From the NCBI GenBank assembly GCA_025024175.1, contig QCXZ01000001.1, positions 34,590,942 through 34,654,941 on the forward strand: 64,000 nt of DNA, given 5' to 3'. Positions 42,925 to 64,000 of this stretch are shown here, one piece after another; position 1 is the stretch's first letter, and each line of letters begins with the position of its first letter. The DNA is from Rhyzopertha dominica (lineage: Eukaryota > Arthropoda > Insecta > Coleoptera > Bostrichidae). The notes under the pieces were generated by a model. The model saw only the letters and a program-made list of their open reading frames with translations, did no database searches and was not told where the DNA came from. Made by a program: the position numbers and the translations under genes.

Positions 42925-45900
42925 TCATAAATAAACAAGTAACAAAAATATGCGAATTTCAACAATTATTTATATCTCGGGGAACGGAGTTGTTGCCATG
43001 TTAGTCCCTCAGCAGAATAATCCCACGTTAATGAACTTCCGATCTTTGAAAACAGATTTACTTACTGAATAATTAATAAAAATTTGTGAATATAAACAAT
43101 TATCTATATCCCAGTTAATAGAGTTGGTGCCACGTAAGTTCTTTAGCAGAAAAATTTCCTTGTCAAATAGCTATCGATTTCCGCAAACAGATTTACTTGC
43201 ACTACATCAAGGGCCCAGTTATTAACAATATTTATAAACAATTATTTATAACTCGGTTAATAGTAGAGTTGATGCCACGTAAGTTCTTTTGCAGAAAAAT
43301 TTCCTTGTTAAATAGCTATCGATTTCCGCAAACAGATTTACTTGCACTACATCAAGGGCCCAGTTATTAACAATATTTATAAACAATTATTTATAACTCC
43401 GTTAATAGAGTTGATGCCACGTAAGTTCTTTTGCAGAAAAATTTCCTTGTTAAATAGCTATCGATTTCCGCAAACAGATTTACTTGCACTACATCAAGGG
43501 CCCAGTTATTAACAATATTTATAAACAATTATTTATAACTCCGTTAATAGAGTTGATACCACGTAAGTTCTTTTGCAGAAAAATTTCCTTGTTAAATAGC
43601 TATCGATTTCCGCAAACAGATTTACTTGCACTACATCAAGGGCCCAGTTATTAACAATATTTATAAACAATTATTTATAACTCGGTTAATAGAGTTGATG
43701 CCACGTAAGTTCTTTTGCATAAAAATTTCCTTGTTAANTACCTATCCATTTCCGCAAACAGATTTACTTGCACTACANCAAGGGCCCAGTTANTAACAAT
43801 ATTTATAAACAATTATTTATAACTCNGTTAATAGAGTTGATGCCACGTAAGNTCTTTTGCATAAAAATTTCCTTGTTAAATACCTATCCATTTCCGCAAA
43901 CAGATTTACTTGCACTACATCAAGGGCCCAGTTATTAACAATATTTATAAACAATTATTTATAACTCGGTTAATAGAGTTGATGCCACGTAAGTTCTTTT
44001 GCAGAAAAATTTCCTTCTTAAATAGCTATCGATTTCCGGAAACAGATTTACTTGCACTACATCAAGGGCCCAGTTATTAACAATATTTATAAACAATTAT
44101 TTATAACTCGGTTAATAGAGTTGATGCCACGTAAGTTCTTTCGCAGAAAATTTTCCTTGTTAAATANCTATCNATTTCCGCAAACAGATTTACTTGCACT
44201 ACATCAAGGGCCCAGTTATTAACAATATTTGTAAACAATTATTTATAACTCGGTTAATAGAGTTGATGCCACGTAAGTTCTTTTGCAGAAAAATTTCCTT
44301 GTTAAATAGCTATCGATTTCCGCAAACAGATTTACTTGCACTACATCAAGGGCTCAGTTATTAACAATATTTATAAACAATTATTTATAACTCGGTTAAT
44401 AGAGTTGGTGCCACGTAAGTTCTTTTGCAGAAAAATTTCCTTGTTAAATAGCTATCGATTTCCGGAAACAGATTTACTTGCACTACATCAAGGGCCCAGT
44501 TATTAACAATATTTATAAACAATTATTTATAACTCGGTTAATAGAGTTGATGCCACGTAAGTTCTTTCGCAGAAAATTTTCCTTGTTAAATAGCTATCGA
44601 TTTCCGCAAACAGATTTACTTGCACTACATCAAGGGCCCAGTTATTAACAATATTTGTAAACAATTATTTATAACTCGGTTAATAGAGTTGATGCCACGT
44701 AAGTTCTTTTGCAGAAAAATTTCCTTGTTAAATAGCTATCGATTTCCGCAAACAGATTTACTTGCACTACATCAAGGGCCCAGTTATTAACAATATTTAT
44801 AACTCGGTTAATAGAGTTGATGCCACGTAAGTTCTTTTGCAGAAAAATTTCCTTCTTAAATAGCTATCGATTTCCGCAAACAGATTTACTTGCACTACAT
44901 CAAGGGCTCAGTTATTAACAATATTTATAAACAATTATTTATAACTCGGTTAATAGAGTTGATGCCACGTAAGTTCTTTTGCAGAAAAATTTCCTTGTTA
45001 AATAGCTATCGATTTCCGCAAACAGATTTACTTGCACTACATCAAGGGCTCAGTTATTAACAATATTTATAAACAATTATTTATAACTCGGTTAATAGAG
45101 TTGATGCCACGTAAGTTCTTTTGCAGAAAAATTTCCTTGTTAAATAGCTATCGATTTCCGCAAACAGATTTACTTGCACTACATCAAGGGCTCAGTTATT
45201 AACAATATTTATAACTCGGTTAATAGAGTTGATGCCACGTAAGTTCTTTTGCAGAAAAATTTCCTTCTTAAATAGCTATCGATTTCCGCAAACAGATTTA
45301 CTTGCACTACATCAAGGGCTCAGTTATTAACAATATTTATAAACAATTATTTATAACTCGGTTAATAGAGTTGATGCCACGTAAGTTCTTTTGCAGAAAA
45401 ATTTCCTTGTTAAATAGCTATCGATTTCCGCAAACAGATTTACTTGCACTACATCAAGGGCTCAGTTATTAACAATATTTATAACTCGGTTAATAGAGTT
45501 GATGCCACGTAAGTTCTTTTGCAGAAAAATTTCCTTCTTAAATAGCTATCGATTTCCGCAAACAGATTTACTTGCACTACATCAAGGGCTCAGTTATTAA
45601 CAATATTTATAAACAATTATTTATAACTCGGTTAATAGAGTTGATGCCACGTAAGTTCTTTTGCAGAAAAATTTCCTTGTTAAATAGCTATCGATTTCCG
45701 CAAACAGATTTACTTGCACTACATCAAGGGCTCAGTTATTAACAATATTTATAAACAACTATTTATAACTCGGTTAATAGAGTTGGTGCCACGTAAGTTC
45801 TTTTGCAGAAAAATTTCCTTGTTAAATAGCTATCGATTTCCGCAAACAGATTTACTTGCACTACATCAAGGGCTCAGTTATTAACAATATTTATAAACAA

Positions 45901-48900
45901 TTATTTATAACTCGGTTAATAGAGTTGATGCCACGTAAGTTCTTTTGCAGAAAAATTTCCTTCTTAAATAGCTATCGATTTCCGCAAACAGATTTACTTG
46001 CACTACATCAAGGGCTCAGTTATTAACAATATTTGTAAACAATTATTTATAACTCGGTTAATAGAGTTGATGCCACGTAAGTTCTTTTGCAGAAAAATTT
46101 CCTTGTTAAATAGCTATCGATTTCCGCAAACAGATTTACTTGCACTACATCAAGGGCTCAGTTATTAACAATATTTATAAACAATTATTTATAACTCGGT
46201 TAATAGAGTTGATGCCACGTAAGTTCTTTCGCAGAAAATTTTCCTTGTTAAATAGCTATCGATTTCCGCAAACAGATTTACTTGCACTACATCAAGGGCC
46301 CAGTTATTAACAATATTTATAAACAACTATTTATAACTCGGTTAATAGAGTTGATGCCACGTAAGTTCTTTGCAGAAAAATTTCCTTGTTAAATAGCTAT
46401 CGATTTCCGGCAAACAGATTTACTTGCACTACATCAAGGGCCCAGTTATTAACAATATTTATAAACAACTATTTATAACTCGGTTAATAGAGTTGATGCC
46501 ACGTAAGTTCTTTTGCAGAAAAATTTCCTTGTTAAATAGCTATCGATTTCCGCAAACAGATTTACTTGCACTACATCAAGGGCTCAGTTATTAACAATAT
46601 TTATAAACAACTATTTATAACTCGGTTAATAGAGTTGGTGCCACGTAAGTTCTTTTGCAGAAAAATTTCCTTGTTAAATAGCTATCGATTTCCGCAAACA
46701 GATTTACTTGCACTACATCAAGGGCTCAGTTATTAACAATATTTATAAACAACTATTTATAACTCGGTTAATAGAGTTGATGCCACGTAAGTTCTTTTGC
46801 AGAAAAATTTCCTTGTTAAATAGCTATCGATTTCCGCAACAGATTTACTTGCACTACATCAAGGGCCCAGTTATTAACAATATTTATAAACAACTATTTA
46901 TAACTCGGTTAATAGAGTTGATGCCACGTAAGTTCTTTTGCAGAAAAATTTCCTTGTTAAATAGCTATCGATTTCCGCAAACAGATTTACTTGCTCTACA
47001 TCAAGGGCTCAGTTATTAACAATATTTATAAACAACTATTTATAACTCGGTTAATAGAGTTGATGCCACGTAAGTTCTTTTGCAGAAAAATTTCCTTGTT
47101 AAATAGCTATCGATTTCCGCAAACAGATTTACTTGCACTACATCAAGGGCCCAGTTATTAACAATATTTATAAACAACTATTTATAACTCGGTTAATAGA
47201 GTTGATGCCACGTAAGTTCTTTTGCAGAAAAATTTCCTTGTTAAATAGCTATCGATTTTCCGCAAACAGATTTACTTGCACTACATCAAGGGCTCAGTTA
47301 TTAACAATATTTATAAACAACTATTTATAACTCGGTTAATAGAGTTGATGCCACGTAAGTTCTTTTGCAGAAAAATTTCCTTGTTAAATAGCTATCGATT
47401 TCCGCAAACAGATTTACTTGCACTACATCAAGGGCTCAGTTATTAACAATATTTATAAACAACTATTTATAACTCGGTTAATAGAGTTGATGCCACGTAA
47501 GTTCTTTTGCAGAAAAATTTCCTTGTTAAATAGCTATCGATTTCCGCAAACAGATTTACTTGCACTACATCAAGGGCTCAGTTATTAACAATATTTATAA
47601 ACAACTATTTATAACTCGGTTAATAGAGTTGATGCCACGTAAGTTCTTTTGCAGAAAAATTTCCTTGTTAAATAGCTATCGATTTCCGCAAACAGATTTA
47701 CTTGCACTACATCAAGGGCCCAGTTATTAACAATATTTGTAAACAATTATTTATAACTCGGTTAATAGAGTTGATGCCACGTAAGTTCTTTTGCAGAAAA
47801 ATTTCCTTGTTAAATAGCTATCGATTTCCGCAAACAGATTTACTTGCACTACATCAAGGGCCCAGTTATTAACAATATTTATAAACAACTATTTATAACT
47901 CGGTTAATAGAGTTATGCCACGTAAGTTCTTTTGCAGAAAAATTTCCTTGTTAAATAGCTTATCGATTTCCGCAAACAGATTTACTTGCACTACATCAAG
48001 GGCTCAGTTATTAACAATATTTATAAACAACTATTTATAACTCGGTTAATAGAGTTGGTGCCACGTAAGTTCTTTTGCAGAAAAATTTCCTTGTTAAATA
48101 GCTATCGATTTCCGCAAACAGATTTACTTGCACTACATCAAGGGCCCAGTTATTAACAATAATTTATAAACAACTATTTATAACTCGGTTAATAGAGTTG
48201 ATGCCACGTAAGTTCTTTTGCAGAAAAATTTCCTTGTTAAATAGCTATCGATTTCCGCAAACAGATTTACTTGCCACTACATCAAGGGCCCAGTTATTAA
48301 CAATATTTGTAAACAATTATTTATAACTCGGTTAATAGAGTTGATGCCACGTAAGTTCTTTTGCAGAAAAATTTCCTTGTTAAATAGCTGATCGATTTCC
48401 GCAAACAGATTACTTGCACTACATCAAGGGCCCAGTTATTAACAATATTTATAAACAATTATTTATAACTCGGTTAATAGAGTTGATGCCACGTAAGTTC
48501 TTTTGCAGAAAAATTTCCTTCTTAAATAGCTATCGATTTCCGCAAACAGATTTACTTGCACTACATCAAGGGCCCAGTTATTAACAATATTTATAAACAA
48601 TTATTTATAACTCGGTTAATAGAGTTGATGCCACGTAAGTTCTTTTGCAGAAAAATTTCCTTCTTAAATAGCTATCGATTTCCGCAAACAGATTTACTTG
48701 CACTACATCAAGGGCCCAGTTATTAACAATATTTATAAACAATTATTTATAACTCGGTTAATAGAGTTGATGCCACGTAAGTTCTTTTGCAGAAAAATTT
48801 CCTTCTTAAATAGCTATCGATTTCCGCAAACAGATTTACTTGCACTACATCAAGGGCCCAGTTATTAACAATATTTATAAACAATTATTTATAACTCGGT

Positions 48901-51530
48901 TAATAGAGTTGATGCCACGTAAGTTCTTTTGCAGAAAAATTTCCTTCTTAAATAGCTATCGATTTCCGCAAACAGATTTACTTGCACTACATCAAGGGCC
49001 CAGTTATTAACAATATTTATAAACAATTATTTATAACTCGGTTAATAGAGTTGATGCCACGTAAGTTCTTTTGCAGAAAAATTTCCTTCTTAAATAGCTA
49101 TCGATTTCCGCAAACAGATTTACTTGCACTACATCAAGGGCCCAGTTATTAACAATATTTATAAACAATTATTTATAACTCGGTTAATAGAGTTGATGCC
49201 ACGTAAGTTCTTTTGCAGAAAAATTTCCTTCTTAAATAGCTATCGATTTCCGCAAACAGATTTACTTGCACTACATCAAGGGCCCAGTTATTAACAATAT
49301 TTATAAACAATTATTTATAACTCGGTTAATAGAGTTGATGCCACGTAAGTTCTTTTGCAGAAAAATTTCCTTCTTAAATAGCTATCGATTTCCGCAAACA
49401 GATTTACTTGCACTACATCAAGGGCCCAGTTATTAACAATATTTATAAACAATTATTTATAACTCGGTTAATAGAGTTGATGCCACGTAAGTTCTTTTGC
49501 AGAAAAATTTCCTTCTTAAATAGCTATCGATTTCCGCAAACAGATTTACTTGCACTACATCAAGGGCCCAGTTATTAACAATATTTATAAACAATTATTT
49601 ATAACTCGGTTAATAGAGTTGATGCCACGTAAGTTCTTTTGCAGAAAAATTTCCTTCTTAAATAGCTATCGATTTCCGCAAACAGATTTACTTGCACTAC
49701 ATCAAGGGCCCAGTTATTAACAATATTTATAAACAATTATTTATAACTCGGTTAATAGAGTTGATGCCACGTAAGTTCTTTTGCAGAAAAATTTCCTTCT
49801 TAAATAGCTATCGATTTCCGCAAACAGATTTACTTGCACTACATCAAGGGCCCAGTTATTAACAATATTTATAACTCGGTTAATAGAGTTGATGCCACGT
49901 AAGTTCTTTTGCAGAAAAATTTCCTTCTTAAATAGCTATCGATTTCCGCAAACAGATTTACTTGCACTACATCAAGGGCCCAGTTATTAACAATATTTAT
50001 AAACAATTATTTATAACTCGGTTAATAGAGTTGATGCCACGTAAGTTCTTTTGCAGAAAAATTTCCTTCTTAAATAGCTATCGATTTCCGCAAACAGATT
50101 TACTTGCACTACATCAAGGGCCCAGTTATTAACAATATTTATAAACAATTATTTATAACTCGGTTAATAGAGTTGATGCCACGTAAGTTCTTTTGCAGAA
50201 AAATTTCCTTCTTAAATAGCTATCGATTTCCGAAACAGATTTACTTGCACTACATCAAGGGCCCAGTTATTAACAATATTTATAAACAATTATTTATAAC
50301 TCGGTTAATAGAGTTGATGCCACGTAAGTTCTTTTGCAGAAAAATTTCCTTCTTAAATAGCTATCGATTTCCGCAAACAGATTTACTTGCACTACATCAA
50401 GGGCCCAGTTATTAACAATATTTATAAACAATTATTTATAACTCGGTTAATAGAGTTGATGCCACGTAAGTTCTTTTGCAGAAAAATTTCCTTCTTAAAT
50501 AGCTATCGTTTCCGAAACAGATTTACTTGCACTACATCAAGGGCCCAGTTATTAACAATTATTTATAACTCGGTTAATAGAGTTGATGCCACGTAAGTTC
50601 TTTTGCAGAAAAATTTCCTTCTTAAATAGCTATCGATTTCCGCAAACAGATTTACTTGCACTACATCAAGGGCCCAGTTATTAACAATATTATTTATAAC
50701 TCGGTTAATAGAGTTGATGCCACGTAAGTTCTTTTGCAGAAAAATTTCCTTCTTAAATAGCTATCGATTTCCGCAAACAGATTTACTTGCACTACATCAA
50801 GGGCCCAGTTATTAACAATATTTATAAACAATTATTTATAACTCGGTTAATAGAGTTGATGCCACGTAAGTTCTTTTGCAGAAAAATTTCCTTCTTAAAT
50901 AGCTATCGATTTCCGAAACAGATTTACTTGCACTACATCAAGGGCCCAGTTATTAACAATATTTATAAACAATTATTTATAACTCGGTTAATAGAGTTGA
51001 TGCCACGTAAGTTCTTTTGCAGAAAAATTTCCTTCTTAAATAGCTATCGATTTCCGAAACAGATTTACTTGCACTACATCAAGGGCCCAGTTATTAACAA
51101 TATTTATAAACAATTATTTATAACTCGGTTAATAGAGTTGATGCCACGTAAGTTCTTTTGCAGAAAAATTTCCTTCTTAAATAGCTATCGATTTCCGCAA
51201 ACAGATTTACTTGCACTACATCAAGGGCCCAGTTATTAACAATATTTATAAACAATTATTTATAACTCGGTTAATAGAGTTGATGCCACGTAAGTTCTTT
51301 TGCAGAAAAATTTCCTTCTTAAATAGCTATCGATTTCCGAAACAGATTTACTTGCACTACATCAAGGGCCCAGTTATTAACAATATTTATAAACTATTTA
51401 TAATTAATAGAGTTGATGCCACGTAAGTTCTTTTGCAGAAAAATTTCCTTCTAAATAGCTATCGATTTCCGGAAAACAGATTACTTGCATACATCCAGTA
51501 CCTAGTAATTAACAATGTTTATAAAGAACA
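42925..51530. repeat. 142-bp satellite DNA array, about 60 copies
   Basis: The unit runs from AACAATATTTATAAACAATT through CGGTTAATAGAGTTG, CCACGTAAGTTCTTTTGCAG and CTATCGATTTCCGCAAACAG to CATCAAGGGCCCAGTTATT. Copies are head to tail with a 142-bp step. The first two (42,940-43,190) and last two (51,400-51,580) are clearly diverged, as expected for array edges. Sub-types occur in blocks: CCTTGTT with GGGCCCAG (43.2-44.7 kb), GGGCTCAG (44.9-46.2 kb), AACAACTATT (46.3-48.2 kb), and near-identical CCTTCTT copies (48.5-51.4 kb). Five or so units have lost 14 bp between two ATTTATA words. The 103-150-codon frames seen here come from copies that lost one base (141 bp) and so stay in frame; they are not genes. 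Confidence 0.97.
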
Positions 51531-51738: not shown

Positions 51739-51838
51739 NNNNNNNNNNNNNNNNNNNNNNNNNNNNNNNNNNNNNNNNNNNNNNNNNNNNNNNNNNNNNN
51801 NNNNNNNNNNNNNNNNNNNNNNNNNNNNNNNNNNNNNN
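51739..51838. other. Assembly gap (100 undetermined bases)
   Basis: Exactly 100 n's, the conventional placeholder for a gap of unknown length. To the left are diverged satellite and non-coding flank; to the right the viral capsid relic begins at once. The true distance, orientation and even adjacency of the two sides are therefore not established by this sequence. Confidence 0.97.
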
Positions 51839-52800
51839 GTAGTAATATGAACGACGGAAATTAGCATACATTTCATACAAAATAGCATATTTATTTGTTT
51901 TAAAATCGAGATTTAGGTTGTCATAGGGTAGGATTCGGAATTTAAGAAAACTTTTAAATTTGTTATATGACATGATCAAACTGGTTACTATAAGAACTTA
52001 AAACATTTTTACGGTTGATTTGAAAACCTATTAAAATAAATCTGGGTTTTTCCAACTGATTAGTAGTTTTAACAGGCCAAATGTGTTTTGTTGTCTGTGG
52101 CAGCATTGGATATTCATACAGATCCCAAGCACGAAAACCAATTTCCAGATCTTGCGATTTTTCAATTTGTTTTAATAAACGCAGTTTTTCAATATCAGAT
52201 ATTTGAACGTGTGGAATTTTCCATACAATTTTATTTATTGTAAGCTGAGGAACTTCACCAGCCACAGGAGAATAGTAACAAAAATTGTTGTCAGTAGAAC
52301 TTCGTATTAGGATCAGTTCCTGTTTCATATTAATTAAAATTTTTCTGAAATCCTCGAAAAATCCCATAAGCAGTTTCATTGGTATCACGAAATTAAAATT
52401 TCCGTTTGCATCTCTTATATAAGCACTTTCTACGTCCATGCCGGCTGCTGCATAACGTGTTGCGTCGGAGATTTAAACGAACACAAGTTTTTCATTCTGG
52501 ACGTCGTTCCTACGTTTTTCACTTTATCCACCGTGCAACCTGCTATTTCGTATCTCATTTCATCAAATAAGTATGCCGCACAGTTATTTAAAAGCTTTAT
52601 TTTTTATCACTATTTTCCTTTGTCATCCACAAATTTTCCCCTATGCAAAGAAGACTCTCACATGGTAATTGTATAATATCCTGTGCTTGAACGGTAATTC
52701 TTATTCATCTTGAGTTATTTGATATTGTTGTATTATGTAGCATATAACGGTGGTATTCAATTTTGTTATGACTCATCGAATATGCACCTGGTTCACATTA
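51839..52800 (-). pseudogene. Major capsid protein (double jelly-roll type) relic, cut by the gap
   Basis: On the minus strand, sequence from about 52,800 leftwards resembles the hexon-like major capsid protein of insect Polintons: a block with AYLFDEMRYEI near 52,545, then the open 158-codon part 52439-51963 (KQELILIRS, RFILIGFQINRK), then after stops and a frame change LPYDNLNLDF and YAILYEMYANF (51,930-51,850). It then runs into the n-gap, so the C-terminal part is missing. At least three frame disruptions are present. The protein builds the icosahedral shell in the family. Assignment is from motif recall; a structure-based comparison would settle it. Confidence 0.7.
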
Positions 52801-56336: not shown

Positions 56337-57032
56337 ATGCTCAGAAAAATAAAAGTTATTAAACACAAAGTATCTTTGGAGGTGGAAAATAATGATTTAA
56401 AAAAACGTGAAACAAGTAAACATGGTATTTTATTTCCTTCAACCGTTAGGTGTATAATTACAGGACCCAGCGGTGCTGGAAAAACTAACGTAATGATAAG
56501 TCTAATTGAACATGAAAATGGGTTAAAATTTGAAAATATTTACCTATATTCACGATCTTTATCCCAACCAAAATACATATATCTTGAACATCTTCTGAAA
56601 CCAATAAAAGGTATTCATTATTTTGCTTACAATGCGGGGGAAAACATATTGGACCCCTCAAAAGCAAGAAAAAATTCGATTTTTATTTTTGATGATGTTG
56701 CGTGTGATAATCAGGATATTATTAGAGAGTATTTCAGTCGGGGAAGACATAACAACATAGATTCATTTTATCTTTGTCAAACTTATGCAAAAATTCCCAA
56801 ACATTTGATTAGGGATAATGCAAACGTTGTGGTTTTGTTTAAGCAAGATGATACCAATTTAAAACATGTATATCAAGATCACGTTGGTACCGACATGGCT
56901 TTTGATGAATTCAAACAAATTTGTTTTCACTGTTGGAAGATTCCGTTTCAGTTTTTATCAATATTCACAGAAAGCGATTTAAATCGCGGTCGTTATAGGA
57001 AAAATTTTGATTATTTTATATGTTTTGAGTAA
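56310..57032 (+). CDS. A32/FtsK-HerA-type genome packaging ATPase, 240 aa
   Basis: The Walker A motif GPSGAGKT is at about residues 52-59, and Walker B with the following acidic residue (IFIFDDV) at about 121-127; a sensor-like region (DSFYLCQTYAKIPKHLIRDN) follows. The length of 230-240 residues is normal for the Polinton/adintovirus packaging ATPase, which pumps the genome into the capsid. The frame is intact, with no sign of decay. An alternative start at 56337 (MLRKIKVIKHK) may be the real one, because it leaves more room for the divergent PLA2 gene. It ends 207 bases before the next plus-strand gene. Confidence 0.92.
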   Translation: MNEYIETISMLRKIKVIKHKVSLEVENNDLKKRETSKHGILFPSTVRCIITGPSGAGKTNVMISLIEHENGLKFENIYLYSRSLSQPKYIYLEHLLKPIKGIHYFAYNAGENILDPSKARKNSIFIFDDVACDNQDIIREYFSRGRHNNIDSFYLCQTYAKIPKHLIRDNANVVVLFKQDDTNLKHVYQDHVGTDMAFDEFKQICFHCWKIPFQFLSIFTESDLNRGRYRKNFDYFICFE

Positions 57033-57239: not shown

Positions 57240-57812
57240 ATGTTTGCTATAAAACCGTTGAAATCGGTGTATCAGTTACTTTACATTGGGCGTATCAACA
57301 AAAGTGTGAACAAGAAAGAAATGGATGTGCCCTGCACTTTGATTTTCCAATCGACTGATGAGGTGCAGTTACCTACCGACATGCTGTTTGTCGTTACAAA
57401 GGAGCTCTTGAAGTTCAAACAACAAGAGGCAAGAATGTCCGGTAAGAAGGTGGTTATTAAACTGGGTTATTCACCAAGGGGAGCACGGTTGGTGGATTTG
57501 TTTGGAAACATGCCTATAAAATACGTAAGAACAAACCTACGGGACCAGAACGAGTTGGATCTGTTTGAAGCTGCTATTCGGCGGTTTCAGATAAATATGG
57601 TTGCTCTACCCATTGAACAAAGTTCGCAGGGAGAAGAACCCGAGGAAGTCATCAGTCTCGATGATGAGGATGAAGATACTCAGGATTTACCTGCACCGAC
57701 AGCTAAAAACAAACGATCTGCACCAAGAACGACAACTACAAACACCTCTTTAAAGAGGATGAAAACATCTGGAGGAGACCATTCTCCTGAAGATGCTTCT
57801 CAGCTGGGATAA
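57240..57812 (+). CDS. Orphan protein with SUMO-interaction-like motif, 190 aa
   Basis: Not recognised. The first 125 residues look folded, with alternating hydrophobic strands and helices (LPTDMLFVVTKELLKFKQQE, KVVIKLGYSPRGARLVDLFG). The rest is disordered, with an acidic stretch directly after a hydrophobic core, EEVISLDDEDED, which has the form of a SUMO-interacting motif. A threonine- and serine-rich tail with basic patches (NKRSAPR, LKRMK) follows. Base composition is richer in G and C than the neighbours. A TATA-like TTTATAAAA lies directly upstream (57,230-57,238). It is intact and sits between ATPase and integrase, convergent with the latter. Nuclear localisation and DNA binding are guesses from composition. 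Confidence 0.75.
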   Translation: MFAIKPLKSVYQLLYIGRINKSVNKKEMDVPCTLIFQSTDEVQLPTDMLFVVTKELLKFKQQEARMSGKKVVIKLGYSPRGARLVDLFGNMPIKYVRTNLRDQNELDLFEAAIRRFQINMVALPIEQSSQGEEPEEVISLDDEDEDTQDLPAPTAKNKRSAPRTTTTNTSLKRMKTSGGDHSPEDASQLG

Positions 57813-57901: not shown

Positions 57902-58821
57902 TTAAAGTATATTGTCTTTATTTATCCACGAATTATGTTTATTGTTAAATCCTAACCACTTAACAAGCACTTGGTTTCGTCTTCGTTTCAATACCTTTTC
58001 TACGAGAAACACATCCGGATATTTTACTTTTTGCAGTTGCTCTTGATAAAAACATCCAAGAATATCTTTACCATTTTCGTCCTTCAGTAAATATGTAGTT
58101 GGGTTTGTTAATTTAACTTTTCGTATAGTAAAAACCTCTGTTGACCAGTTGGGTAAATATTTTTTATCAAAAATTCCTCGCACTTTTGAAATACGAACAT
58201 GATCACCCGCATGAAACTTGGGTGTAATATTAGTAATTTTAATCTTGTTGTATACCGTTTCAAGAAGTCTGGACTCATCCTTTTTAGAGACATCATCAGG
58301 TTTCATATGTATTGTTCTATGGATTGTATTGTTATATTTATTACAATTTTTGGTAACAAATCCAACCACTTATAATTGCCCTGCAAGCTAAATTCTTTCC
58401 ACATAAAATTTTTTAGGGTTCTATTTACCCGCTCGACAATAGACGCTTTTTTTTCGCTGTACGCTGAATAATGGTTTACGTTATACTTTTTAATCAAATT
58501 ACGAAAGCTTGCATTATAAAACTCTGTCCCCATATCGGTCTGAAGGTTTACAGGTTTTTGTATTTTAAAAACTTTTTCCATTGCTTTGCTCACTTCTACA
58601 CCGGTTTTGTGTTTTATAGGAAATGCCCACACAAATTTAGAAAAACAATTAATTACAACTAATATGTACTTATAACCTCCATTAACTTTGGAATAAGGGA
58701 GCATTTCTACCAGATCTGCTTGAAACAGATCATTTAATGATTTTAGTATAACAGCACGTCTTTTAAAATTAACTCGAGCTGGTTTGTGTATTTCTTCTAC
58801 AACCTGTCTTTTCATATCCAT
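57902..58821 (-). pseudogene. Retroviral-type integrase with C-terminal chromodomain, one frameshift
   Basis: The frame from 58821 has the rve catalytic core: FQADLVEM (D36), LQTDMGTEFYN (D96) and KASIVERVNRTL (E130). No N-terminal zinc-binding HHCC domain precedes it. The frame shifts by minus one near 58,340-58,350, in an A/T-rich stretch. The second frame continues through a small beta barrel (FHAGDHVRISK) to a chromodomain at the C-terminus (DVFLVEKVLKRRRNQVLVKW and NSWI), ending at 57902. In Polintons this enzyme inserts the element into host DNA; a chromodomain would bind methylated histone tails. All catalytic residues remain, so the break is recent or an assembly error. Confidence 0.85.
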
Positions 58822-59888: not shown

Positions 59889-60512
59889 ATGTTGGTTTAT
59901 TCAGCACTTAAATATGCTTCATGTGCGTCTGCGCTAATATATTGCATATTTCTCGCTTCTAATTATGTTAATCAGTCACTATTCGTTATTCCTTTTGATA
60001 AGATCAGTATGGAACAACATAAAAATTGTATAAGTGAACTATTAAGCAAAATTAATCATTATTTAAATGCCGATAATGAACAATCGATGCAAATAACTGT
60101 GTTTTCAAGTACGTTACATAAACTAGTTTTACTAGAGCTGAAAAAACATTGCCGTTATCTGAAAGAATGTGAGAATGCTGAAATAACTGTGGTTTACAAC
60201 AAAATATTTGGAGATCACTTGACAACGTGCCCGTGGTCCAATCCTAAATGTACAGTAGGTCCAGATACCTGTTATTGCTACAAAGTGATGACACGAATAA
60301 AAGCATGTAACGAACTACTTAACGATTTGGATGTGATGAGATTGTCTGATACCGGAGGAAAAAAGACTCAACAGGGTGATGACGGTGATGAAGAGGAAAG
60401 TGTTATAAGCGAAACTCAAACCACAACAAAATGTGTTTTATGTTTTTGTCAATATTATATAACAAACAATGTTCAAAGGATGTTAAATTCTATGAGAAAT
60501 TTGTTTAAATAA
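59889..60512 (+). CDS. Cysteine-rich orphan protein, 207 aa (or 167 aa)
   Basis: Not recognised. If it starts at 59889, the N-terminus is hydrophobic (residues 10-32). However, the inner ATG at 60009 (MEQHKNCISELLSK) may be the real start, because a TATA-like TAATATATT (59,935) and an initiator-like TCAGT (59,972) lie between the two. The middle is helical with repeated Cys and His (KHCRYLKECEN, HLTTCPWSNPKC, CYCYK), possibly a zinc-binding or disulfide-bonded module. An acidic stretch (GDDGDEEESV) precedes a C-terminal CVLCFCQYY motif. Intact frame; low similarity to anything I know. Possibly a host-interaction protein, without proof. Confidence 0.65.
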   Translation: MLVYSALKYASCASALIYCIFLASNYVNQSLFVIPFDKISMEQHKNCISELLSKINHYLNADNEQSMQITVFSSTLHKLVLLELKKHCRYLKECENAEITVVYNKIFGDHLTTCPWSNPKCTVGPDTCYCYKVMTRIKACNELLNDLDVMRLSDTGGKKTQQGDDGDEEESVISETQTTTKCVLCFCQYYITNNVQRMLNSMRNLFK

Positions 60513-60576: not shown

Positions 60577-61221
60577 CTACAAATTTTTGTAATTTATTAG
60601 GTTTACATACATATTCTTCATATTTTTTTTAAGAACAACAGTATTCCATATTATGTAAAATGTTTTATTTAAATCCTCCTTCTGTGTAATGGTTATTGCC
60701 GGTATTGCAGTATTCAAACACACCATACCAAAAACTACATTTTGGGCATGAACATATTCTAGAGATAAATTGTCTATCTTGTTGTTCCGTATTTTCATCA
60801 TCTCGAGTGTTAGCGTTGGATTACCACTGAGCAAAATAAACGATTTGTGATCAAAAAAACTCTTACTTGTAATACAGATATCCTTCACTTTTTCATCTAT
60901 TACATTGATGCTGTTAATACTTCCATCCAGCAAATCAAACACCAAACCATAAAACATTGTTGTTATAGGCATCCTATCGAAGACCAGACAGCGTAACGTT
61001 TCAGCATGTAACAATTTAAAAAATCTTTCCATTGCAAAAATCATATACAGCTGCGATGTAAACTTATCGGTGATTTTCTGTTGAATTAAATTCGCTTTCA
61101 AATCTTCAGCATAATCCGAATATGTTACTTTAAATAATAGATAATGCTTTGCAAGCGATCTTAGTGTTGTAGTTTTTCCACAACATGCAACCCCATCCAG
61201 AAAGACAACGGCACCTTTCAT
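60577..61221 (-). CDS. Deoxynucleoside/thymidylate kinase-like protein, 214 aa
   Basis: The P-loop LDGVACCGKTTTLRSL is at residues 8-23, and a VFDRMPITTMFY block at about residues 80-91 matches the DR(S/M) motif of the deoxyribonucleoside kinase and thymidylate kinase family. A lid-like region with basic residues (MMKIRNNK) follows. The length fits. It most resembles, from memory, the divergent thymidine kinase proteins of nudiviruses and related insect DNA viruses. It would supply nucleotide precursors for viral DNA synthesis, alongside the dUTPase 1.1 kb away. The frame is intact. It is divergent from the CHHC gene across a repeat-rich 540-bp spacer. Confidence 0.72.
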   Translation of the reverse strand: MKGAVVFLDGVACCGKTTTLRSLAKHYLLFKVTYSDYAEDLKANLIQQKITDKFTSQLYMIFAMERFFKLLHAETLRCLVFDRMPITTMFYGLVFDLLDGSINSINVIDEKVKDICITSKSFFDHKSFILLSGNPTLTLEMMKIRNNKIDNLSLEYVHAQNVVFGMVCLNTAIPAITITQKEDLNKTFYIIWNTVVLKKNMKNMYVNLINYKNL

Positions 61222-61309: not shown

Positions 61310-61640
61310 AACAAAAGTCAAACATGGTTTGCACACGTAAATTATATTACGTGCTTGATAAAAAGTTTTTGAAATGAATGTCTACTACGTTTCCGTTAAA
61401 CAAAAGGTCAAATGTGATTTGCGCATTCGGCATACATAAATTGCACACGTGTTTGATAAAAAGTATTTTTTTAACGAATGCTGATTGCTGACTATATGAA
61501 TTTACATAAACATGTTTTGACGTTGTTTGAGGTCATGCTTTATACACATGTGTATGATAAATGCGGAAATGTGTTATTAAAATGCTTTGACGTTGTTTGA
61601 GATCATGCACTATACGCATGTGTGATAAATGCGGAAATGT
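61310..61640. repeat. Two families of direct repeats in the kinase-CHHC spacer
   Basis: Repeat A: a 55-bp unit starting TTTGACGTTGTTTGAG-TCATGC and ending GATAAATGCGGAAATGT occurs at 61516-61572 and 61586-61640 (step 70 bp). Repeat B: AAAAG-TCAAA at 61316 and 61402, each followed by TTTGC-CA and later by GCACACGT and TTGATAAAAAGT (ending near 61,371 and 61,469). The spacer is 540 bp, the longest non-coding part of the viral block, and ends in a run of about 25 A (61,644-61,668). It may hold the promoters of both genes, or an origin. Confidence 0.7.
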
Positions 61641-61678
61641 AATAAAAAAAAAAAAAAAAAAAAAAAAACAGTTGAGCA

Positions 61679-61759: not shown

Positions 61760-62205
61760 ATGGGTGATGGTGTGTAATTTAATTATTTTTTACTAAATAA
61801 CAATTTTTATATTATTTCTATTTTACAGAATTTGCACGTTGTCCTATTAATTCATCGCATTTTGTATTAAAATCAAGAATGCTGCGGCATTTAACAAGAT
61901 GCAGCTATCAGCTAGCTAGGCAGCGAGGACAGCAACAGCCACGAACAGAACTGCCCCCTTATGTGGGGGTTCCACCACCACCACGACCGCCGCCACCACA
62001 ACAAGATGACCAACCACCGCCACAGCCGCTCCAGACTGAAGCCCGGGAGCAGCCAAACGAGGAGGAATGTTGGGATAATAGCAATTATCCAACATATGCT
62101 CCAATGCCGCGGTATGTGCCTCCGCCGTGGTTTAGCAAAAAACAAAAACAGGAGTGGCGAAGACTGCAGGGTGTACATTATAAGCAGGATCAGTATCAGT
62201 CTTGA
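61760..62205 (+). CDS. Viral CHHC zinc-finger protein resembling GTSF1/Asterix (spliced), 128 aa
   Basis: Exon 1 is 61760-61769 (three codons and one base). A 59-nt intron follows, from GTGTGT to TTTTACAG with an ACTAAAT branch-like site, then exon 2 at 61829-62205. Only the spliced product puts the start in frame with residues 5-28, which form a CHHC finger: C8-x5-H14-x9-H24-x3-C28 (CPINSSH, RHLTRC). This spacing is that of U11-48K and gametocyte-specific factor 1 (GTSF1). A proline-rich linker follows, then an acidic tryptophan-containing patch (EEECWDNSN) and a basic tail (PPPWFSKKQKQEWRRLQ); GTSF1 proteins also have acidic Trp-containing tails that bind Piwi. GTSF1 normally has two fingers, this protein one. 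It could interact with the piRNA machinery or with RNA; this is inference. AATAAA signals lie at 62,211 and 62,241. Confidence 0.8.
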
Positions 62206-62384
62206 TTATAAAAATAAAATTATCCAACATCCGATAAAAAAATAAATGTATTTATTACAAAATGGGTTTTTCTGTGTTTTATAATTTTATGTAATCATGA
62301 GCACAATTATCTCTGCTGAAGTAAATGTAAACTATAGAACGGTATATATTGATACCAAACATATAAGAAACAGTACTATCAAAC

Positions 62385-62937
62385 ATGTTGCGGTATTACA
62401 AAATTGTGTCAGAAGCTTACGCACCGATCCGCGCATACGAAAAGTCTGCTGGTTTAGATTTACGTTCGTTATACACCTGTACGATTCCGGCAAAAGGAAA
62501 ATTTTTGATAAATACTGGGTTGATTATACAACTGCCTGAAAATACATACGGTCGAATTGCACCACGTTCTGGATTAGCATCAGAACATTTTATTGACGTG
62601 GGAGGTAAATTTTGTACATATTTTTCTTTTACATATACATATATTTATATAGTTGTTTGCAATTATTTCAGCTGGAGTAATAGACGAAAACTATACTGGT
62701 GAAATAAAAGTGTTATTGTTCAATTTTTCTGAACAACCATATACGGTATTAAAGGGGGATAAAATTGCTCAACTAATCTGTGAAAAGCTAGTATACCCAG
62801 AAGTTGTGGAAACAAAAGAGGTAAAATTGTGAACATATTAATACTGTAACATTACTAAAAAAATAATATTGTTTGTATAGACCATAACAAACACAGAACG
62901 TTCGTCTAGAGGTTTTGGTTCTTCAGGAAGAAACTAA
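62385..62937 (+). CDS. dUTPase (trimeric type) with two short introns, 141 aa
   Basis: Exons are 62385-62604, 62672-62820 and 62881-62937, separated by introns of 67 nt (GTAAAT-TTTCAG) and 60 nt (GTAAAA-TATAG); phases agree. All five dUTPase motifs are present in order: KSAGLDLRS, APRSGLAS, GVIDENYTGEI, GDKIAQLI and the glycine-rich RGFGSSG. Motif V lies only in the third exon; without the second splice the protein would end four codons later. The enzyme converts dUTP to dUMP and keeps uracil out of viral DNA. It follows the CHHC gene on the same strand and ends 16 bases before the polymerase ATG. An ATG at 62297 opens an overlapping frame of 80 codons that is probably not translated. Confidence 0.92.
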
Positions 62938-62953
62938 CACTACCACCAACATC

Positions 62954-64000
62954 ATGACATCGCAAGAAAAATATCTAGATTATTATGTAAAAAAGGTGCT
63001 AGATAAATTTGAAAGGGTATGTAGATTGGTTAAAACTAAAGAAGATTTTGATAAGTGGATTAGATTATTGAGTAAATTCATTAAAACAACACAAAGCGCA
63101 ATTAGAATTAAGTCCAGTTGTGTGAAAAATTTTTTGAGATTAGAGTCCCAATTGGCGGTTTTAAATTACTACAAGGAAAACTTAAAATTACAAAAACAAC
63201 AAATGAAACGTTCAAAGAACAGGTTTGTTGTTTGGCAAGATTTAGAGTCTGCATTTAAATCCAGGATAAAAACAGGAGCGATTGTTAATCTTAGCATAAA
63301 GGATCCCAAAACATTTTTTCTTAAGGCTTACAAAAGTTTTGTTAAAAAAATTAAGGATGCATTAAGGACTTCTTTATTGAAAGTCAATGTAATATTTAGT
63401 GCAAATTTTGTTCAACCGAAAACTTTAGAAACTGATATAAAACATTTTAGTACGCGAAACAGCGTAATTGATAAAACCACAGACTTAAAAACCTGGTATA
63501 AGGAGAATGTTCAGGATAAAATTTTAAAAGAATTGGAGGAGTTTCAAGAAAGGGATTCGGGTTGGGCTCTCTATCAAATATTAAATTTAAAAGTTAATAT
63601 AAACAAATTTGCACCCATAAATATAGGCATATCTACATATGTTAAATTACCTTTCTTTTTAAGCAAGAAACGTGCTGTTCTAAACATTGAAAATGATGAT
63701 GAGTATTGCTTTCTTTGGGCAATAGTGGCTCATCTATATCCAGCACCGTGTGATAAAAATCCGCGCAGAATTTCTTCATATCCGCACTTTTCTAACGTGC
63801 TAAATTATAGTAACATCAAGTTTCCTATAAAACTGAAGGACATTCCTAAGTTTGAATTAGCAAACAGTTTATCAATAAATGTTTTCACATATGAAGCTAG
63901 AGAGATATTGCCTCTAAGTTTAAGTAAAACCAATTATTCTACCACTATCAACTTACTACTTATAAAGAACGTAAACTATTTTAATCATAGCGGTGATGAG
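62954..64000 (+). CDS. Family B DNA polymerase, N-terminal part (Polinton type), runs off the window
   Basis: Open for all 349 codons to the edge, from an ATG at 62954, 16 bases after the dUTPase stop. The first 190 residues are lysine-rich and helical. From about residue 195 the sequence has the typical N-terminal extension of insect Polinton polymerases: ERDSGWALYQILNLKVNINK, KRAVLNIENDDEYCFLWAIV and SSYPHFSNVLNY. This region precedes the exonuclease and polymerase domains, which lie to the right of the window, so no catalytic motif can be checked. The enzyme copies the element's own DNA, most likely by protein priming. The frame shows no disruption. Confidence 0.82.
   Translation, partial: MTSQEKYLDYYVKKVLDKFERVCRLVKTKEDFDKWIRLLSKFIKTTQSAIRIKSSCVKNFLRLESQLAVLNYYKENLKLQKQQMKRSKNRFVVWQDLESAFKSRIKTGAIVNLSIKDPKTFFLKAYKSFVKKIKDALRTSLLKVNVIFSANFVQPKTLETDIKHFSTRNSVIDKTTDLKTWYKENVQDKILKELEEFQERDSGWALYQILNLKVNINKFAPINIGISTYVKLPFFLSKKRAVLNIENDDEYCFLWAIVAHLYPAPCDKNPRRISSYPHFSNVLNYSNIKFPIKLKDIPKFELANSLSINVFTYEAREILPLSLSKTNYSTTINLLLIKNVNYFNHSGDE

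Follow-up and report, generated by a model that had tools for sequence, protein, structure and literature searches.

A predicted GTSF1-like protein with a single CHHC finger in a Polinton of the beetle Rhyzopertha dominica

GTSF1 is a host protein that aids Piwi in transposon silencing, and silencing suppressors of the Argonaute-hook (GW/WG) type are known from plant viruses. CHHC zinc fingers occur in three eukaryotic protein groups only, according to the available text of two studies (PMC9539491, PMC9385479), and binding to structured RNA was shown for each of the three groups (PMC9539491, available text). As far as the same two sources are accessible, GTSF1 contacts RNA through finger 1 and PIWI through its aromatic tail. 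In mouse GTSF1 the PIWI-binding residues are W98/W107/W112, and no detectable cleavage potentiation was left when the four basic residues in finger 1 were all replaced (PMC9385479, accessible part). The mouse paralogues GTSF1L and GTSF2 are described as binding PIWI via the finger and not the tail (PMC9539491, accessible part), and W99 of BmGtsf1L is required for Vreteno binding and aids Ago3 binding (PMC10711660, accessible part). A zinc-finger accessory gene, 'Ziftr', is reported from an adomavirus and some adintoviruses, which belong to a related virus group; the available text describes its products as regulators that are remotely CTCF-like, not CHHC (PMC11071296).

The locus described here lies in a window of 64 kb (the whole stretch of DNA analysed, C1:34590942-34654941) of a genome that was searched over 479 Mb in 138 contigs. 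As read from the sequence, its CHHC gene consists of two exons and a 59-nt GT-AG intron (Table 1). An earlier note on this DNA had described one 59-nt intron ahead of a finger with the spacing C8-x5-H14-x9-H24-x3-C28 in a 128-aa product, followed by a proline-rich linker and an acidic tail containing Trp. All of these can be read directly: the intron has its GT-AG ends, the four finger codons start at 61840, 61858, 61888 and 61900, and both linker and tail are present in exon 2. Without splicing, the frame of exon 1 meets a stop after five codons. The exon-2 product (124 aa, 61831-62202, starting FARCPINSSHFVLKSRMLRHLTRC...) belongs to a frame that is open already from 61801, and by reading its first in-frame ATG is found at 61879. 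Because this ATG lies inside the finger, the whole finger needs splicing from an upstream start (or a non-ATG start). In L044 and L046, two copies of a second subfamily, exon 1 reads ATGAGTGATG, the intron acceptor and donor are retained (the donor as G/GTGAGT), and the exon indels are mostly multiples of 3. Judged from the sequence, the CHHC gene is very probably spliced.

Table 1. Features of the CHHC gene and of neighbouring genes of the element (window positions).
Feature	Position	Strand	Basis or remark
A32-like packaging ATPase	56337..57029	+	PF04665 E 1.7e-10
Retrovirus-like integrase core and chromodomain	57905..58821	-	PF00665 E 2.3e-12, PF00385 E 4.7e-6
P-loop gene	60577..61221	-	Pfam AAA_28 25.9 bits, cut-off 27
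Exon 1 of CHHC gene, ATGGGTGATG	61760..61769	+	10 nt; three codons and one base
Intron of CHHC gene, GTGTGT...TTTTACAG, donor G/GTGTGT	61770..61828	+	59 nt, GT-AG
Exon 2 of CHHC gene: finger, Pro-rich linker, Trp tail, stop	61829..62205	+	Sequence; in-frame dN/dS
CHHC zinc finger, CPx4Hx9Hx3C, CPINSSHFVLKSRMLRHLTRC	61840..61902	+	Pfam PF05253; model; Foldseek
Pro/Gln-rich linker, where GTSF1 has its second finger	61936..62049	+	Sequence; pLDDT 50-61
Acidic Trp motif EEECWDNSNYPTY including W81, candidate PIWI hook	62059..62097	+	Alignment with GTSF1s; 12/17 to P0127
W100 (PPPWF), W109, predicted helix 103-122	62128..62196	+	Sequence and AlphaFold
dUTPase, first exon (donor by eye)	62385..62604	+	PF00692 E 3.7e-16
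Type B DNA polymerase, N-terminal part; frame runs past the window into L017	62954..64000	+	Sequence search

The finger, for which the earlier note had proposed a profile search, matched PF05253 (zf-U11-48K) at E 3e-8 with 33.8 bits over residues 2-24, above the curated cut-off of 21.1 bits. The query was the exon-2 product alone, with the exons not joined, and this was its sole Pfam family at E<=10. Among 14 named control genomes, PF05253 exceeded its cut-off in one, the archaeon Sulfolobus acidocaldarius, so the match by itself is no proof; the archaeal match is either chance or an archaeal CHHC protein. Across the 127,996 residues of the six-frame translation of the window, the pattern C-x5-H-x9-H-x3-C was found once, and 20 block shuffles gave none. 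Modelled by AlphaFold with an eight-row alignment, the finger reached pLDDT 84-90, with a hairpin and a helix at residues 14-31; the middle of the exon-2 product had low confidence, and a helix was predicted at residues 103-122. Without the alignment the finger was poor (pLDDT 46-56), and since the eight rows include GTSF1s, the model is not independent of sequence similarity. Foldseek returned six rows at E 0.45-8.7, none significant. Its first row, silkworm GTSF1, is no real fit because the rmsd is 19.5 A; the second, mouse GTSF1 6x46, superposed at 0.7 A over 26 residues but at E 1.9, and the fourth, U11-48K 2vy4, at 0.9 A over 26 residues with E 7.1. The structure 9nhc, listed alongside the GTSF1 entry 9nhb, is a SIWI (silkworm) complex. 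Taken from its sequence, the finger is supported as a true CHHC finger.

Among seven fingers compared, the one nearest to the element finger was finger 1 of the host GTSF1-like gene L002 (11/23 identical residues, BLOSUM 66). The other six shared 5-8 of 23 residues: fingers 1 and 2 of host L001 (7/23 and 5/23, the latter with different spacing), the finger of the host U11-48K-like gene L016 (8/23), human U11-48K (8/23), and fingers F1 and F2 of mouse GTSF1 (8/23 and 7/23). The element finger is basic (R3, K14, R16, R19 and R23 of the exon-2 product). In the alignment with the basic ridge of mouse finger 1, R29 and K36 both correspond to R, R26 corresponds to L (with K adjacent) and K39 to Y, so that basic residues stand at two of the four positions published as RNA-binding. 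When the exon-2 product alone was compared with PDB, GTSF1 and U11-48K reached only E 0.73 and 1.2. A profile including the window protein and GTSF1s gave 7.5e-18 for mouse GTSF1, 1.2e-14 for silkworm GTSF1 and 6.1e-6 for U11-48K, values that serve the alignment and are not independent proof because GTSF1 rows sit in the profile.

The element protein shares with GTSF1/Asterix (UPF0224) its small size, a finger-1-like CPx4Hx9Hx3C, three tail tryptophans and an E-x-W-D tail. It differs in having one finger, a Pro/Gln-rich linker and a predicted C-terminal helix, and in being encoded by a Polinton. A second CHHC finger was sought in the exon-2 product with Pfam, and one stretch only was found, with the linker in place of the second; the host-like two-finger proteins P0122 and P0125 gave two PF05253 stretches each. 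The likeness to GTSF1/Asterix that the earlier note had seen thus holds for the finger and the E-x-W-D tail and fails for the number of fingers. By its sequence the element protein is GTSF1-like but not a GTSF1, because it has one finger where GTSF1 has two. U11-48K (SNRNP48) has a single CHHC finger and matches the same Pfam model; its chain is much longer (339 residues in 8r7n_F against 128 aa), its finger is less alike, and other U11-48K regions are absent from the element protein, whose only Pfam match is the finger. TRM13 tRNA methyltransferase also has a CHHC finger, according to the available literature text; no Pfam match to a methyltransferase domain of its type was found in the exon-2 product at E<=10.

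The tail tryptophans of the exon-2 product are W81, W100 and W109. In the profile alignment, which includes GTSF1 rows, W81 is aligned with W107 of mouse GTSF1 (E-D-W107-D-K) and with the tryptophan of E-N-W-D-D in silkworm GTSF1. The tails read SDEDWDKDLWE in mouse GTSF1 and DENWDDE in silkworm GTSF1, and host L001 ends ...YENWDKV; unlike these, the element motif continues as NSNYPTY. When the tail was shuffled 100,000 times, E.WD appeared in 900 shuffles and [DEY]E.WD in 143; the longer tail motif appeared in 0/100,000, a motif that was framed after P0127 (see below) had been seen. Argonaute-hook suppressors likewise have short Trp motifs set in disordered, acidic stretches, and in P0127 such motifs are repeated; the motif of the element protein differs from theirs in being E-E-x-W-D as in GTSF1 and in being fused to a CHHC finger, and its target would be PIWI.

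The gene had been assigned to a Polinton in the earlier note, and its surroundings bear this out: dUTPase and type B DNA polymerase (PolB) genes adjoin it, and an integrase and an A32-like ATPase lie in the same element. Polymerase, rve integrase and ATPase, the defining genes of Polinton/Maverick (adintovirus-like) elements, are all present, and by its gene content the element is a Polinton. A phospholipase-A2-like protein is also among its genes. The search for an adenovirus-type protease stayed below the cut-offs (C48, 18.8 bits against 20.7; C5, 14.1 bits against 21.3). The P-loop gene presumably encodes a thymidylate-kinase-like protein, and the frame 51963-52439 looks like a double-jelly-roll major capsid protein and is a putative capsid gene. 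Next to this capsid-like frame, on the left of the element, the assembly has a gap of 100 N (51739-51838); no terminal inverted repeats were found between 40,001-64,000 and L017. The integrase looks split or frameshifted in the window copy, its core and chromodomain lying in two overlapping minus-strand frames. The thymidylate-kinase-like gene and the CHHC gene are divergent; the stretch that separates them, 61319-61650, holds direct repeat pairs (48, 32, 22 and 20 nt) followed by a poly-A run and is, from its layout, likely a two-way promoter region. Two further open genes, 59889-60512 (207 aa) and 57240-57812 (190 aa), had no Pfam match above cut-off. Repeats at 43122-51426 with frames IAIDFRKQIYLHYIKGPVINNIYKQLFITRLIELMPRKFF... 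form a tandem satellite adjoining the element. Named PolB relatives, among the best 120 of 7,979, were nearly all from insects, a lacewing first and then mostly beetles, wasps and ants. One PolB relative, P0066, is assigned to a genome of the Enterobacter cloacae complex; contamination of that bacterial assembly by insect DNA is the probable cause.

At least 17 matches to PF05253 were found in the genome at E<=0.001 (150/150 first-look candidates scored). Fourteen are copies of the element gene, the window included, and three are host-like genes: L001 and L002, which are GTSF1-like with two fingers, and L016, with one finger, which is named U11-48K-like by sequence and adjoins a gene matching mitochondrial uL2m. 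The exon-2 protein had 58 matches in the genome, and 8 of them (window included) were full length and 100% identical over 124 residues. All 13 other element copies show 98.1-99.8% identity over 2.2-2.9 kb, and the copies are young; exon 2 is frameshifted in 6 of the 13. A search with the ATPase gave at least 152 matches, with fragments counted apart (150/224 candidates scored): 6 at 81-100% identity and the rest of those listed mostly at 27-62%. Two ATPase fragments (65-68%) lie near a degraded copy of the CHHC-bearing element. Many ATPase matches are in open frames, and the Polinton load appears heavy and partly recent. The genome thus holds numerous further Polinton copies, which belong to several families.

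In these other Polinton families no PF05253 match was found by the same lower-bound search, so the CHHC gene marks one lineage within the genome. The dUTPase exon had 39 matches, and since only five of them (53-55% identity) lie outside the CHHC-bearing family, dUTPases that this exon can detect are rare in other families too; three of the five are within ~15 kb of a listed ATPase. In 2,001 bases of one other Polinton family, at a place guessed from the ATPase, there was no recognised frame and no CHHC by eye. The earlier note had suggested looking for the same gene in other Polintons; the other families of this genome did not yield it in the lower-bound search, and outside the genome one probable relative, P0127, was found.

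This relative came from a profile search of 5.8 billion proteins, in which 2,456 candidates gave 7 proteins at E<=1: the window ORF P0001, P0127 and five GTSF1-like proteins with two fingers by eye. Two of the five are near-identical to host L001 and L002, and the sole named one is the ladybird beetle protein P0124. P0127 (E 0.032; JGI, 174 aa, 13 members, 36,934-base contig) starts MCLLGRMNKHMWKC, which resembles the second half of a CHHC finger; P0001 likewise begins at the Met inside the finger. Pfam gave no match for it, inspection by eye showed no second finger, and it carries five copies of [ED][ED]SW[DN]xD[DN]Y. BLASTP of the window protein against P0127 aligned 12/17 residues at E 2e-6 (a single comparison), and from these sequences P0127 is a probable relative of the element protein.

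Other searches returned no further relative in the collections covered. With the window protein alone, 13 candidates were found and only the protein itself matched. In IMG/VR viral contigs, close relatives of the CHHC gene, ATPase and PolB gave 10, 7 and 4 pattern stretches with 0 confirmed, the PolB profile 20 stretches with 0 confirmed, and P0127 6 stretches with 0 confirmed; P0127 in GTDB genomes gave 19 and 0. A DNA pattern of the Trp motif hit four loci in viral contigs, with no relative by eye and no CHHC pattern nearby. Nine viral-contig loci with the CHHC DNA pattern were judged by eye to be chance, with open frames of 31-57 residues; this pattern admits one leucine codon family and Asn only and has low sensitivity, and the window gene fits it. 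PHROGs held no match for the CHHC gene or P0127. In the part of the literature covered, to which subscription journals mostly do not belong, no CHHC protein of a virus or Polinton was found, and the terms GTSF, piRNA, Argonaute and CHHC are absent from two preprints, on animal-virus gene transfer and double-jelly-roll viruses.

The selection on the gene was measured against an older second subfamily, which is represented by L046 on C41 and, on C86, by L044 and a tandem array that includes L033. For exon 2, dN/dS was 0.16, 0.25, 0.20, 0.20 and 0.23 against L046, L044, L033, L034 and L037 (Fisher p 3.8e-6, 3.6e-4, 6.3e-5, 2.1e-5 and 1.3e-4, in this order), and no constraint appeared in the two shifted frames (p >= 0.13). 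A sixth copy, L042, was too similar to tell (only 1 silent change), and the array copy L033 lacks exon 1 and has an altered acceptor. The neighbouring genes in the same copies gave no clear selection signal: the thymidylate-kinase-like gene showed no significant constraint (dN/dS 0.99 against L046, p 1; 0.53 against L044, p 0.29), and the dUTPase exon gave 0.15 (L033, p 0.032) and 0.62 (L034, p 0.45), with L046 and L044 offering too few codons. The older copies are thus partly relics, as the thymidylate-kinase-like gene indicates. They are partly broken; the constraint predates their insertion.

Consensus differences, at which all aligned second-subfamily copies agree (at least 8/12), were also counted as silent/replacement. 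They numbered 4/0 in codons 1-17 (p 0.0013), 3/0 in codons 18-41 (p 0.014), 8/7 in codons 26-124 (p 0.0068) and 12/7 over the whole (p 9.7e-5). The 12 copies stand for two or three independent insertions, since ten come from one array. Codons 1-17 lie upstream of the exon-2 ATG, and the constraint on them therefore favours an upstream start and hence the intron. The earlier note had allowed for a chance frame; eight identical copies and a low dN/dS (0.16-0.25) in one frame only argue that the exon-2 frame is not due to chance.

Capture of the finger gene from the host is plausible by sequence, because the nearest finger is finger 1 of host L002, and unproven, because 23 residues give no firm tree. 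The intron was considered as proof of host capture and rejected: by reading, the acceptor of the L002 exon is in another phase, with 22 nt from the exon start to the first Cys codon in L002 and 11 in element exon 2.

PIWI interference is the best-supported mechanism for the element protein, and from the sequences we infer its binding, dominant-negative action, expression, splicing and host origin. In our preferred reading, to which we give a little less than an even chance, it would be an accessory GTSF1-mimic protein of one Polinton lineage, in competition with the GTSF1 of the host for binding to PIWI-piRNA complexes. The acidic E-E-x-W-D tail would mimic the grip of GTSF1 on PIWI and occupy its place there. 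The lone finger, with an incomplete basic ridge and no second finger, would neither boost slicing nor recruit silencing factors. The protein should act as a decoy because the PIWI tail is kept, the RNA-binding finger is incomplete and the second finger is gone, and such a decoy, docked on PIWI, would blunt piRNA silencing of the element in the germline. In favour of this reading are the Pfam match, the nearness to host finger 1, the aligned tail tryptophan, the motif repeats of P0127, the purifying selection, the eight identical copies and the two basic positions. Against it count the single finger, the shortness of the tail motif, the GTSF1 rows in the aligning profile, the poor PDB and Foldseek E-values, the modest score of P0127, the archaeal PF05253 match and the binding of PIWI via a finger in mouse GTSF1L and GTSF2. 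If the finger instead bound tRNA or structured RNA of the element and the Trp tail another partner, with no part for PIWI, the protein would be an RNA-binding regulator of its element. This would suit the basic finger, the neighbourhood of dUTPase and polymerase genes and the structured-RNA binding of each CHHC group (PMC9539491, available text); we consider it rather unlikely, and it leaves unexplained both the E-x-W-D tail common to GTSF1s and its multiplication in P0127.

Poorer still are the prospects of a working GTSF1 substitute, which would aid PIWI slicing, so that the resident element directs the pathway of its host against competing Polintons or viruses, a form of superinfection exclusion. 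Rivals are at hand, with at least 152 Polinton ATPase matches in the genome, most of those listed at <=62% identity, and the protein has the CHHC finger and the Trp tail in common with GTSF1. Its second finger is absent, however, it keeps two of the four residues whose joint replacement stopped mouse GTSF1 from potentiating cleavage (PMC9385479, accessible part), and such a protein would endanger its own element too. A U11-48K-like splicing factor acting on element or host RNA is very improbable: the Pfam model bears the U11-48K name, U11-48K is single-fingered and the fold matches 2vy4 as given above, but the host L016 finger is less alike (8/23), and U12-type introns were ruled out by eye, the three introns seen in the element beginning GTGTGT, GTAAAT and GTAAAA. 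We give hardly any credence to the view that the frame is open by chance or is a functionless fragment of a host gene in decay. The exon-2 frameshifts and the relic-like state of the older copies would fit it, and against it stand the in-frame constraint in five comparisons, absent in shifted frames, the splice sites that L044 and L046 retain, and the Pfam match above cut-off.

The preferred reading, competition with GTSF1 on PIWI, could extend to a PIWI-antagonist family of stripped-down GTSF1 mimics with one finger and one to five hooks (five in P0127). Such a family is possible but doubtful on the sequences at hand; its candidate hook motif would be E-E-x-W-D-x-[DSN]-[DN]-Y. If the reading is true, this would be the first mobile-element protein found, within the literature searched, to jam the piRNA pathway by copying the pathway's own cofactor, and a fourth CHHC protein group would stand beside the three of the literature. 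A selected GTSF1-like CHHC protein in a DNA transposon adds an element-encoded CHHC member, and it raises a testable question: viruses encode suppressors of siRNA silencing, so do transposons carry counterparts that act on the piRNA pathway?

The divergence between the two subfamilies is uneven. The dS of exon 2 is 0.23-0.28, several times that of its surroundings, which diverge less (intron 2/59 and 3/59; upstream 9/161 and 8/159; 3' flank 5/85 and 7/84; dS 0.04-0.05 in the thymidylate-kinase-like gene). On the simplest reading of these sequences, exon 2 may have been exchanged with a more distant relative, and other carriers of the gene would therefore exist. On C86, positions 9949314-9960021 (L033-L041, L047) hold a head-to-tail array of ten units of ~1.15 kb, each unit consisting of CHHC exon 2, dUTPase and the start of PolB (window 61781-62977). 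This satellite-like array, born from the element, might conceivably give rise to antisense small RNAs.
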